Below are positions 40,487 to 43,227 of a stretch of 64,000 nucleotides of DNA, piece after piece. The first letter of the stretch is position 1, and each line of letters starts with the position of its first letter. Location of the stretch: NCBI RefSeq assembly GCF_000250655.1, contig NC_016935.1:3490001-3554000 (forward strand), written 5' to 3'. The notes under the pieces are model-generated. The model was not told the DNA's origin and made no database searches. It worked only from the letters and a program-made list of their open reading frames with translations. The translations under genes were made by a program, and so were the position numbers. Origin of the DNA: Paenibacillus mucilaginosus 3016 (GTDB taxonomy: Bacteria > Bacillota > Bacilli > Paenibacillales > NBRC-103111).

Positions 40487-40900
40487 GTGGTAACTAGCGA
40501 ATTTGCCAAGCTGTGGTGGAAACTCTCCAAAGATCTTCGCAGCCATATGGAAACGCAACTGGCCCCAACACTCACGGAGGGACAACTAACCGTACTGGAA
40601 CTGCTGGTGATTAATGAACCTCAGAAGATGAAGCCTTCGGATTTTATCGATTTTCTGACGACGACACCGGCGGCCATCACCACGCTGCTCGACCGGATGG
40701 AGAAGGGCGGCCTGATCGCCCGAGAACGGGACGAACGGGACCGGCGGATTGTCTGGGTGCTTCTGACGGACAAGGGACGCACGGAATGCGAACGCGGCGT
40801 TGCGGTCCGCGAACAGTTCCTGCAGTCTTATCTGGGGCGGATCTCCTCTCACAATCAGCAGCTTCTCGTGTATTTGCTGGGGAAAGTAGCGAATGCGTAA
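40487..40900 (+). CDS. MarR-family transcriptional regulator
   Basis: 137 residues with the MarR winged helix: LTVLELLVINEPQKMKPSDFIDFLTTTPAAITTLLDRMEKGGLIARERDERDRRIVWVLLTDKG, covering recognition helix and wing with the conserved DxRR (DRRIVWVLLT). Dimerisation helices flank it. Start GTG 40487, since an upstream ATG in another frame stops at once. The ligand and targets are unknown; MarR proteins usually control a neighbouring gene, and here the next gene is the small toxin locus, in the same direction but with its own promoter. Confidence 0.9.
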   Translation: MVTSEFAKLWWKLSKDLRSHMETQLAPTLTEGQLTVLELLVINEPQKMKPSDFIDFLTTTPAAITTLLDRMEKGGLIARERDERDRRIVWVLLTDKGRTECERGVAVREQFLQSYLGRISSHNQQLLVYLLGKVANA

Positions 40901-40920
40901 ACGCTATCAAGGTCAAAATA

Positions 40921-40934
40921 CGAAAATATGTTCT
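40921..40934 (+). promoter_or_regulatory. LexA (SOS) box-like sequence at the toxin promoter
   Basis: CGAAAATATGTTCT matches 12 of 14 positions of the Bacillus LexA/DinR box (CGAACATATGTTCG). It overlaps the -35 element of the toxin promoter, where repressor binding would block transcription. Confidence 0.45.
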
Positions 40935-40959
40935 CATTTATGTTCGCATATGGTATAAT
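40931..40959 (+). promoter_or_regulatory. Promoter of the holin-like toxin mRNA
   Basis: TTCTCA (40931-40936), a 17-base spacer and TATAAT (40954-40959). This predicts a 5' UTR of about 80 bases before ATG 41048. In it CCTC (in CAGCCTCTGCC) can pair with GAGG of the ribosome binding site. Confidence 0.7.
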
Positions 40960-41047
40960 GTGGAGACAATAGGGTGCGGCACTCAAGGGCGGCCCGGCTC
41001 ACACTCGCTTTCCCTGATGGCAGCCTCTGCCGGAAGGAGGTGATGCC

Positions 41048-41131
41048 ATGGAAGTGAAGGATGCGGTATCCTTGATGTTCATGTTCGGCATGTTCATCCT
41101 GGCCCTGCTGTCCTATTTGAAAAAAAAGTAG
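41048..41131 (+). CDS. Holin-like toxin peptide (type I toxin), 27 residues
   Basis: MEVKDAVSLMFMFGMFILAL followed by LSYLKKK. A short polar N-terminus, one membrane helix and a lysine tail match the putative holin-like toxin family of Firmicutes (Pfam Hol_Tox; relatives of TxpA/BsrG), peptides that insert in the cytoplasmic membrane. The ribosome binding site is a very strong GGAGGTGA (41036-41043), spaced 4 bases, and possibly sequestered in the mRNA. Immediately after the stop come a long inverted repeat and, on the opposite strand, a predicted antisense RNA. It is too short for ordinary gene finders. Toxicity is inferred from family, not shown. Confidence 0.8.
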   Translation: MEVKDAVSLMFMFGMFILALLSYLKKK

Positions 41132-41167
41132 ACCTCCCTTGAGCCTTGTCAGCCGAGAGGTCTACTT
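41126..41167 (-). terminator. Terminator of the antisense RNA
   Basis: AAGTAGACCTC (41126-41136) pairs perfectly with GAGGTCTACTT (41157-41167). On the minus strand it is followed by eight U; on the plus strand no T-run follows, so it acts on the antisense direction. Confidence 0.85.
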
Positions 41168-41219
41168 CTGGTTATAGCCTTATGTCGACCGCCCTTGAGG
41201 GCAATCTATTGTGAAGCCG

Positions 41220-41253
41220 GACTGCAGATGCGGGAACATCTGCGGTCTTTTTT
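41220..41253 (+). terminator. Terminator of the toxin mRNA
   Basis: GACTGCAGATG (41220-41230) pairs with CATCTGCGGTC (41237-41247; one G-U pair), followed by T6. Confidence 0.85.
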
Positions 41254-41270
41254 GCATTCAGCGTACGAAC

Positions 41271-41300
41271 ATCATAACATATTTTGCCTGATCTTGAAAA
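41271..41300 (-). promoter_or_regulatory. Promoter of the antisense RNA
   Basis: On the minus strand TTTTCA (41295-41300), an 18-base spacer and TATGAT (41271-41276) with an extended -10 TGT before it. Confidence 0.55.
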
Positions 41301-41570
41301 GAAAAAATGACGAACAGGGCCCCGGCTGATGCCCTGAGGAGAAGGCGGAAAGCCCGGTAACGCCGGGGGTCCGGCGGGTTGGGAACCAGTAGAAGCCTCT
41401 GAAAAATGCGAACATAGAGAAGTCACGCCAGCACCCAAATGACGACCAACAGGCCGTATCCACTACGCAGAGAGGAGGCTTCCGGCAAGGCGGGCGCAGG
41501 ATTCGCACTACTTTATCGCGTGTTCACCCCACCGAATGAGGGAAGAGGATCGTTTCGATCAGGATCGATC
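41301..41570. other. Noncoding stretch between the toxin locus and rluA-type gene
   Basis: About 270 bases with several GC-rich inverted repeats (for example CAGGG...CCCTG and CCCGGTAACGCCGGG) but no gene with a ribosome binding site and no recognised RNA family. Confidence 0.4.
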
Positions 41571-41620
41571 ACAACAAACAACCCCGGCGCTCTGAGCTTA
41601 CCGCTCAGGCGTCCGGGGTT
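41569..41620 (-). terminator. Terminator of the pseudouridine synthase transcript
   Basis: AACCCCGG (41580-41587) pairs with CCGGGGTT (41613-41620), with an inner TGAGC/GCTCA stem; T-rich on the minus strand just beyond. Confidence 0.75.
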
Positions 41621-41656
41621 GGGAGTGTCAAGCACTGCCATCTCCGGTGAGGAGGC

Positions 41657-42361
41657 CTACAGCCCGTACGATGCTTCCTCCCACAGCAGCCAAGGGAACG
41701 ACTTCGGCGGCCGGGAGGTGAACTTCAGCGCCTCCTTGGTCACCGGATGGGAGAACTCTAGGATGCTGGACCACAGGGCGATCTGCTGGCCCGGCTGGGC
41801 CAGGGTGCCGCCGTAGCGCTGATCCCCGACGAGGGGGCAGCCGGTAGTGGCAAACTGCACGCGGATCTGGTGCGGGCGCCCGGTGTGCAGCTCCACCTGC
41901 ACGAGCGACAGGCCGTCCTGGCTGCCCAGCACCCGGTAGTCGAGCACCGCCTCCTTCGCGCCGGCCTTGGAGGCCGGAACGGCGGACACCATGTTCGTCC
42001 GCTCGTTCTTCAGCAGGTGATGCCGGAGGGTGCCCTGCGGCTGCTTCGGCCGGCCGTGTAGTACGGCGGAGTACACCTTGCGGATCGTGCGCGTGCGCAC
42101 CGCGTCGGAGAGGCGGGATGCCGCCTTCGACGTCTTGGCGAACACCATCACGCCGCCTACGGGCCGGTCCAGCCGGTGGACGAGGCCAAGGTATACGTTG
42201 CCAGGCTTGCCGTGCCGGTGCTTCAGGTCGGCCTTGATCAGCGTGAGCAGATCGGGGTCGCGGGAGTCATCCTCCTGCGTCGGCACATTGGGCGGCTTCA
42301 CGACCACGATGACATGGTTGTCCTCATACAGGACAGGGATGACGGGGGAGGAGCCGGCCAT
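41657..42361 (-). CDS. RluA-family pseudouridine synthase
   Basis: 234 residues from ATG 42361 with GGGAGG seven bases upstream inside the end of the methyltransferase gene; a longer GTG start (42394) lacks support. Motifs: HRLDRPVGG with catalytic Asp65, then YSAVLHG and the GRPHQIRVQFA segment. No S4 domain is present, so it is of the short RluA/YhcT-like group modifying uridines in rRNA or tRNA; the target position cannot be told. It is 2 bases after the methyltransferase stop, so the two genes form an operon. Confidence 0.9.
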   Translation of the reverse strand: MAGSSPVIPVLYEDNHVIVVVKPPNVPTQEDDSRDPDLLTLIKADLKHRHGKPGNVYLGLVHRLDRPVGGVMVFAKTSKAASRLSDAVRTRTIRKVYSAVLHGRPKQPQGTLRHHLLKNERTNMVSAVPASKAGAKEAVLDYRVLGSQDGLSLVQVELHTGRPHQIRVQFATTGCPLVGDQRYGGTLAQPGQQIALWSSILEFSHPVTKEALKFTSRPPKSFPWLLWEEASYGL

Positions 42362-42363
42362 GC

Positions 42364-43227
42364 CTACGCCTCCCAGCGGCCGAGAATGCCGCACGGCAGG
42401 TGCAGTCCGGAAGCGGTGATCGGCAGTCCGATCTCGCCGCAGGTGATGTCTCCGCCGAACTTCGAGCCGAGGGAGAGCGCCAGGATGTTCTTGAGCACGG
42501 AGGCCGAGAGGCCGGTCGTGTAAGAGTTGATCAGGAAGAAGAGCGGCTGATCGGACAGGATGCTCATGCAGGACTCCACGAACGGGTACAGGTCCGTCTC
42601 CAGCTTCCAGGTCTCGCCGTTCGGTCCGCGCCCGTAGGACGGAGGGTCCATAATGATCGCATCATACTTGCTGCCGCGGCGCTGCTCGCGCTGGACGAAC
42701 TTGAACACATCGTCGGTGATGAAGCGCACCGGACGGTCGCCGAGGCCCGACAGCTGCAGGTTCTCCTTGGCCCACTGTACCACGCCCTTGGACGCGTCGA
42801 CGTGGCAGACGTTCGCGCCGGCCGAGGCGCAGGCCACGGAGGCTCCGCCCGTGTAGGCGAAGAGGTTCAGCACGCGGATCGGCCGGCCCGCCGAAGCGAT
42901 CTTCTCGCGCATCCAGCTCCAGTTGACGGCTTGCTCTGGGAACAGCCCCGTATGCTTGAAGCTCGTCGGCTTGATGTGGAACTGCAGGCCGTTATACGAG
43001 ATCGTCCAGCGCTCGGGCAGCTCCTTCTTGTATTCCCAGCTGCCGCCGCCGCTCGAGCTGCGGTGGTAATGCGCGTCGGCCTTTTTCCAAGGGGCCGTTT
43101 CTTTGACCAGAGGCCAGATAATCTGCGGATCCGGGCGCCGCAGAACAATGCTGCCCCAGCGTTCGAGCTTTTCCCCGCCGCCGGTATCAATGAGTTCGTA
43201 ATCTTTCCAATCCTGTGCTGCAAACAT
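42364..43227 (-). CDS. Class I SAM-dependent methyltransferase (RlmI-like)
   Basis: 287 residues: a short N-terminal beta domain (ELIDTGGGEKLERWGSIVLRRPDPQI), then the SAM-binding Rossmann fold with LNLFAYTGGASVA (motif I), CHVDASKGVVQWAKEN (motif II) and the catalytic-type loop MDPPSYGRGP (motif IV). The pattern resembles 23S rRNA cytosine-C5 methyltransferases of the RlmI/YwbD group but without the PUA domain and without the full cysteine motif, so the target may differ. First gene of the two-gene minus-strand operon with the pseudouridine synthase: an RNA-modification pair. Confidence 0.85.
   Translation of the reverse strand: MFAAQDWKDYELIDTGGGEKLERWGSIVLRRPDPQIIWPLVKETAPWKKADAHYHRSSSGGGSWEYKKELPERWTISYNGLQFHIKPTSFKHTGLFPEQAVNWSWMREKIASAGRPIRVLNLFAYTGGASVACASAGANVCHVDASKGVVQWAKENLQLSGLGDRPVRFITDDVFKFVQREQRRGSKYDAIIMDPPSYGRGPNGETWKLETDLYPFVESCMSILSDQPLFFLINSYTTGLSASVLKNILALSLGSKFGGDITCGEIGLPITASGLHLPCGILGRWEA

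Follow-up and report, generated by a model that had tools for sequence, protein, structure and literature searches.

The closest described counterparts of the locus considered here are type I toxin–antitoxin (TA) systems of Bacillus subtilis. According to PMC6562991, each of the antisense RNAs SR4 and RatA base-pairs with its toxin mRNA, 3′ end to 3′ end, and the resulting duplex is cleaved by RNase III. In BsrG, Shine–Dalgarno (SD) pairing grows from 4 bp to 8 bp when the antisense RNA binds, and cleavage of the duplex by RNase III is not required; in TxpA, this cleavage is essential. The same source places bsrG, txpA and bsrE of B. subtilis on prophages or prophage-like elements, with bsrG on SPbeta. 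A further point of comparison is ComI, a peptide of 28–30 amino acids with one predicted membrane helix, encoded by plasmid pBS32 of B. subtilis and by the chromosome of B. licheniformis. According to PMC5503854, the chromosomal B. licheniformis peptide has 28 amino acids and one predicted helix; its deletion doubled transformability and its overexpression cut it threefold.

A 64-kb window of Paenibacillus mucilaginosus 3016 (the whole stretch of DNA analysed, from a genome of 8,739,048 bases in one contig) very likely contains a chromosomal type I TA locus of the BsrG/Hol_Tox family, with an mRNA whose ends are predicted to pair and whose SD is predicted to be hidden, a putative membrane toxin and a putative 3′ antisense RNA. 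The plus strand at 40965..41244 matches Rfam RF01412 (BsrG) with 70.9 bits (gathering score 55) over positions 1–259 of the 259 of the model. Its E-value over the 64-kb window is 1.8e-14, and at gathering scores Rfam has no other match there. The encoded peptide covers positions 1–34 of the 34 of the Pfam profile PF16935 (Hol_Tox), scoring 43.6 bits (cut-off 23.3). Thus, the locus is of a kind already known, since its RNA passes the Rfam threshold and its peptide the Pfam threshold. With a score above the curated cut-off over the full model, a predicted overlap of the RNAs at their 3′ ends and an SD predicted to be hidden, it resembles BsrG/SR4 as described in PMC6562991. These two library matches and a conserved antisense promoter support the proposal, made in an earlier note on this DNA, of a type I TA system with BsrG/SR4-like geometry. 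The further claim of an undescribed system in this genus is not supported in that wording, because RF01412 and PF16935 stand in public libraries, 24 of the 25 genomes of the genus match RF01412 and Paenibacillus plasmid copies are annotated ‘putative holin-like toxin’. As the family is catalogued, widespread and already annotated on plasmids and phages, ‘undescribed’ applies to this one locus only; no experiment on such a locus in Paenibacillus was found in open-licence PubMed Central. What is new is the conservation of the antisense promoter, the purifying selection on the peptide and the position of the locus behind one and the same parC–MarR pair, shared by 15 of the 25 genus genomes.

The family is broadly distributed, and the search for copies in related genomes that the earlier note had suggested was productive. 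The 24 genus genomes with RF01412 matches include that of P. mucilaginosus 3016; the match exceeds the cut-off in 21 of the 25, with at most nine matches per genome. Among 104 genomes of the family, which include the 25 and were scanned with stricter filters, so that the counts are lower bounds, at least 74 have a match and at least 45 one over the cut-off. In 14 control genomes, RF01412 matched in B. subtilis only. One 4.3-Mb genome of the same family (G087) has 11 matches, the best of 156.9 bits. Relatives of the peptide also occur on phages and plasmids: among 50,697 phage records searched by tblastn at E up to 0.1, 52 had a hit, and among 72,556 plasmid records, 14. The top phage matches, 85.2% identical, are in the Brevibacillus phages Jimmer1, Jimmer2, Osiris and Powder. 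In Jimmer1 (NC_029104.1), where the gene adjoins the integrase gene, its annotation reads ‘putative holin-like toxin’, and the RNA of this copy scores 120.5 bits to RF01412; in some other phage records, the toxin gene is annotated ‘hypothetical protein’. The top plasmid matches (81.5%), in P. peoriae, Brevibacillus borstelensis and B. halotolerans, are all three annotated ‘putative holin-like toxin’. The peptide studied here is thus similar to Hol_Tox peptides of phage Jimmer1 and of Paenibacillus and Brevibacillus plasmids, which sit on mobile DNA.

The features named in the earlier note are in the sequence, at the places it gave. A consensus scan of 40600–41700 yields exactly two promoter matches, both with an extended −10 (TG before the −10 box; shuffled sequences: mean 0.5, SD 0.6), and both with the boxes and spacing that the note had given: TTCTCA-17-TATAAT on the plus strand (40931..40959) for the toxin mRNA and TTTTCA-18-TATGAT on the minus strand (41271..41300) for the antisense RNA. 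The scan for intrinsic terminators recovered that of the toxin mRNA at 41219..41253 on the plus strand, a hairpin (41219–41248) followed by a T-run, again in agreement with the note. On the assumption of start sites 6–7 nt after each −10, and with both RNA ends being assumptions, the promoters and terminators predict a toxin mRNA of ∼288 nt (40966..41253, plus strand) and an antitoxin RNA of ∼147 nt (41118..41264, minus strand), which would overlap by ∼136 nt at their 3′ ends, a geometry that the note had proposed. The 27-residue open reading frame with its SD is likewise there, starting with ATG at 41048..41131 behind the SD GGAGGTGA at 41036..41043, both on the plus strand. The antisense terminator (41120..41167, minus strand), read from the sequence and with a counterpart stem in relatives, combines the stem 41126–41136/41157–41167 with a U-run from the lysine codons of the toxin. 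The note had counted eight U after an 11-bp stem; the stem is perfect, but six U follow it, and eight are reached only if two stem-paired U are counted. By these positions, the end of the toxin gene, with its final lysine codons and stop codon, supplies the U-run and part of the stem. The epithet ‘complete’ given to the locus is justified for its anatomy only.

The peptide, in which one membrane helix can be read from the residue sequence, is similar in size and predicted topology to ComI (PMC5503854). ComI (NF052249) is its best NCBIfam match, yet the score of 43.9 bits falls short of the 55-bit equivalog cut-off, in which the Paenibacillus peptide differs from ComI; against PepG1 (NF041589, equivalog cut-off 70 bits), it reaches 18.1 bits. 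The locus could encode a ComI-like membrane peptide that conditionally blocks or kills competent cells, with the antisense RNA setting its level, and the effect of the chromosomal 28-residue ComI of B. licheniformis on transformability (PMC5503854) makes this conceivable. Given the missed cut-off, we consider it improbable compared with a TA function.

Conservation follows the functional parts of the predicted TA locus. Expressed as mean pairwise identity over seven representatives of the site, one of which (L058) comes from a low-quality genome, it is highest from the SD to the base before ATG (0.96; 41035–41047), followed by the open reading frame (0.86), the 3′ arm of a helix termed P1 (0.85), the plus terminator (0.78), each promoter (0.75) and the 3′ arm of the antisense stem (0.67). 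It drops to 0.37 in the variable 5′ UTR and to 0.41 between the hairpin and P1; just upstream of the toxin promoter it is 0.58, and just before and just after the minus promoter 0.46 and 0.35. Compared with each of 13 syntenic orthologues, the toxin gene has 1–5 nonsynonymous and 6–12 synonymous codon differences. At the sequence level, the peptide is under purifying selection. The earlier note had made its reading depend on conservation of the peptide and its frame among relatives, and both are conserved, with few amino-acid changes. In L008 / L058 (G016), the toxin frame is shifted near its end; the genome has a completeness of 84 and sits on a very long tree branch, and the shift probably reflects assembly quality.

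This pattern bears on whether the locus is a decaying remnant of a mobile TA module that has lost its expression. Members of the family are found on phages and plasmids, 10 of the 25 genus genomes lack the locus, and the same genome harbours a shortened copy (L004) in which the scan found no minus-strand promoter. However, the stretches in between have diverged more than the frame, both promoters, the plus terminator and P1, and the peptide has undergone few amino-acid changes, so that decay of the present locus is a little less probable even than a ComI-like role. In all, RF01412 matches the source genome once, and three of its frames exceed the Hol_Tox cut-off (search run at E up to 1). The second locus, L002 (1361–1740; ∼3,688.9–3,689.3 kb), combines a frame and an antisense-terminator hairpin with promoter-like sequences on either strand; RF01412 gave no match there at E 0.1. 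The third frame, in L004 (1501–1572; ∼7,909.3 kb), has a shortened C-terminus without the lysine end and is probably a decaying copy. The locus in the window is best read as a conserved and probably working type I TA member of the BsrG/Hol_Tox family that occupies a core site of the chromosome.

A different objection concerns the antisense RNA. Any stem is also a stem on the opposite strand, and lysine codons give U-runs on the minus strand; the gene might thus encode a common small membrane protein whose mRNA is structured, and the signals on the minus strand would be by-products of paired arms and lysine codons. What this does not account for is the minus promoter, which overlaps neither the coding nor the paired parts and yet is conserved (0.75 compared with 0.46 and 0.35 in its flanks). 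A score of at least 9 of 12 is reached by this promoter in 25 of 30 loci, as against 7 of 30 for the opposite strand of the same stretch and 12.5% for shuffled sequences; after removal of near-copies, the figures are 14 of 18 distinct loci, 4 of 18 and 11.6%. A by-product origin is accordingly the least credible of the alternatives and can be regarded as very unlikely.

The compensatory-change analysis of the stem, which the earlier note had put forward, speaks less clearly. Over 23 distinct loci, the seven best stem pairs, picked after counting, are standard in 160 of 161 cells, with both-side changes at six of these seven core pairs. Most of the changes at those pairs come from L002, L027 and L140, which have another stop register. 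In the 20 distinct loci sharing one register, pairs 4–9 are standard in 20 of 20; pairs 1, 2, 3 and 11 fail in 17, 10, 8 and 7 of the 20, respectively. Both-side changes are then left only at pair 5 (7 of 20), pair 8 (1) and pair 12 (5), which weakens any strong claim of compensatory change. Moreover, the change at pair 5 may represent few events shared between subfamilies. With a shuffled partner half, a mean of 8.3 of 12 pairs still forms and at least nine in 36% of cases (real loci, 9–11), because the test chooses the register for most pairs and allows G–U. The antisense stem is kept in relatives, but its covariation is modest, a point that also fits a by-product.

The predicted fold of the mRNA gives some insight into how the locus may be controlled. 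The 5′ arm of P1 (40966..40998, plus strand) pairs with the 3′ arm (41184..41212), so that the ends of the mRNA are predicted to be joined over ∼23 bp (11 + 12); an outer 5′–3′ helix is also present in the Rfam consensus. The SD and the start codon lie inside a 5′-UTR hairpin, in which an anti-SD segment (41023..41028) is predicted to pair with 41036–41041. This pairing is matched by one of 30 5′-UTR shuffles for the copy in the window. The mean unpaired probability of the SD is ≤0.20 in 28 of 28 loci folded. When the 5′ UTR of 17 distinct loci was shuffled, upstream SD pairing was matched by at most one of 30 shuffles in 13 of them, and by 5–10 of 30 in L008, L011, L014 and L027. Six distinct lineages in this set carry the locus at the present chromosomal position; L001, L007 and L024 pass this test, and L008, L011 and L014 do not. 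A 3′ GACCTCC, complementary to GGAGG, was considered as an alternative means of hiding the SD and was rejected: the fold prefers the 5′-UTR partner in the window, and the downstream partner is the main one in a single locus (L011) of the 28 folded.

The SD is predicted to be closed both in the full mRNA and without the antisense-covered 3′ part, with an unpaired probability of ∼0.01 in each. Since it is closed in both states, the fold predicts no antisense-driven SD closing of the BsrG type, and the Paenibacillus locus would differ from BsrG in lacking an extension of SD pairing upon antisense binding. Both RNAs are presumably made and the peptide presumably toxic. In the mechanism that we propose, the plus strand would give the ∼288-nt mRNA with paired ends and a ribosome site hidden in the 5′-UTR hairpin; once translated, this mRNA would yield the 27-residue membrane peptide, harming the membrane or envelope of the cell itself. 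From the minus strand would come the ∼147-nt RNA, which is complementary to the mRNA at its 3′ end and stops at the terminator that takes its U-run from the opposite strand of the toxin's lysine codons. This RNA would approach the mRNA from its 3′ side, pair with it and, most likely, trigger decay by RNase III, while the mRNA's own fold would keep translation low. From the closed SD in both states and the precedents of BsrG and TxpA (PMC6562991), we infer that the antisense RNA would act mainly by decay, as RatA does, rather than as a translation switch. By description, the predicted 3′-end overlap and the proposed RNase III decay liken the locus to TxpA/RatA (PMC6562991).

The genes around the locus are parC, a MarR-family regulator gene (40487..40900, plus strand; Pfam PF01047, 46.7 bits), a convergent RluA-type pseudouridine synthase gene (41657..42394, minus strand; Pfam PF00849, 107.8 bits) and a methyltransferase gene. 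The MarR gene is matched in 25 of 25 genus genomes and parC and MarR occur together in all 25. These core-gene neighbours and the retention of parC–MarR in relatives argue against a prophage location, in keeping with what the earlier note had said. In lying between core genes, the Paenibacillus locus differs from bsrG, which is carried by prophage SPbeta (PMC6562991). The MarR of the source genome has its nearest relative in P. caseinilyticus (91%). The ∼270 nt on the 3′ side of the TA locus (window 41300–41575) are single copy in the source genome; a repeat or mobile piece was considered for them and discarded, as a genome search matched only the stretch itself. The MarR–rluA gap is ∼640 nt longer in the source genome than in L035.

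Behind the same MarR gene, the locus is present in 15 of 25 genus genomes and lacking in the other ten (open reading frame filter over 700 nt; reading of 420 nt), and the RF01412 search of the genus gave no match at the ten empty sites. The ten include L035, the nearest relative on the tree, and the locus is therefore dispensable. Within the fetched flank, rluA comes next at 8 of 15 occupied and 9 of 10 empty sites. In a set of 80 loci overlapping the genus genomes, 12 are occupied. On a site tree built from flanking genes (30 rows, 25 from the genus and five from outside, with L058 on a very long branch), presence and absence need six changes, four of them forced by starred branches; the sister pairs L034/L035, L037/L050 and L039/L046 differ in occupancy. 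The site tree cannot tell gain from loss.

Some empty sites retain a possible trace. In four of the ten (L036, L046, L050 and L056), a GACCTCC...GGAGGTC hairpin occurs ∼5–42 nt after the MarR stop codon. The hairpin does not belong to a widespread class of terminators in these genomes, as the pattern has 0–4 forward matches per genome in 25 genomes and a backwards control pattern also has 0–4. A looser form, searched in the 432 kb of the 80 loci, is found only at this site, in 12 loci with the TA locus and three without it (the counterparts of L036, L046 and L056). The 150 nt behind MarR were also aligned to the region of six occupied loci and compared with 200 block shuffles. L036 and L050 beat all 200 shuffles, L056 is matched by two of 200 and L046 by five of 200; in this alignment, the other six empty sites show nothing. 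The best of 61 other loci without the TA locus scores 32, compared with 39 and 50, and in L036 and L050 the aligned piece includes the counterpart of the toxin's last codons. Two hairpins with equal arms score on both arms, so that convergence of terminators could also produce such scores. The hairpin of the empty sites resembles the antisense terminator, clearly in L036 and L050 and weakly in L046 and L056, and is perhaps a relic of it. We infer a loss that left the hairpin rather than an insertion near one; this order is favoured because L005, a copy at another site in the genome of L050, carries the same hairpin arms. A tentative history, to which we give somewhat less than even weight, is that a mobile TA module settled behind parC–MarR early in this Paenibacillus group, has been maintained there under selection and was lost several times, some of the losers keeping the antisense hairpin as a MarR terminator.

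With its fixed site among core genes, its purifying selection and its presence or absence in near relatives, the locus offers a natural case for the study of a host role of chromosomal type I modules. Similarly, the set of orthologues and paralogues provides material for studying how antisense recognition diverges.
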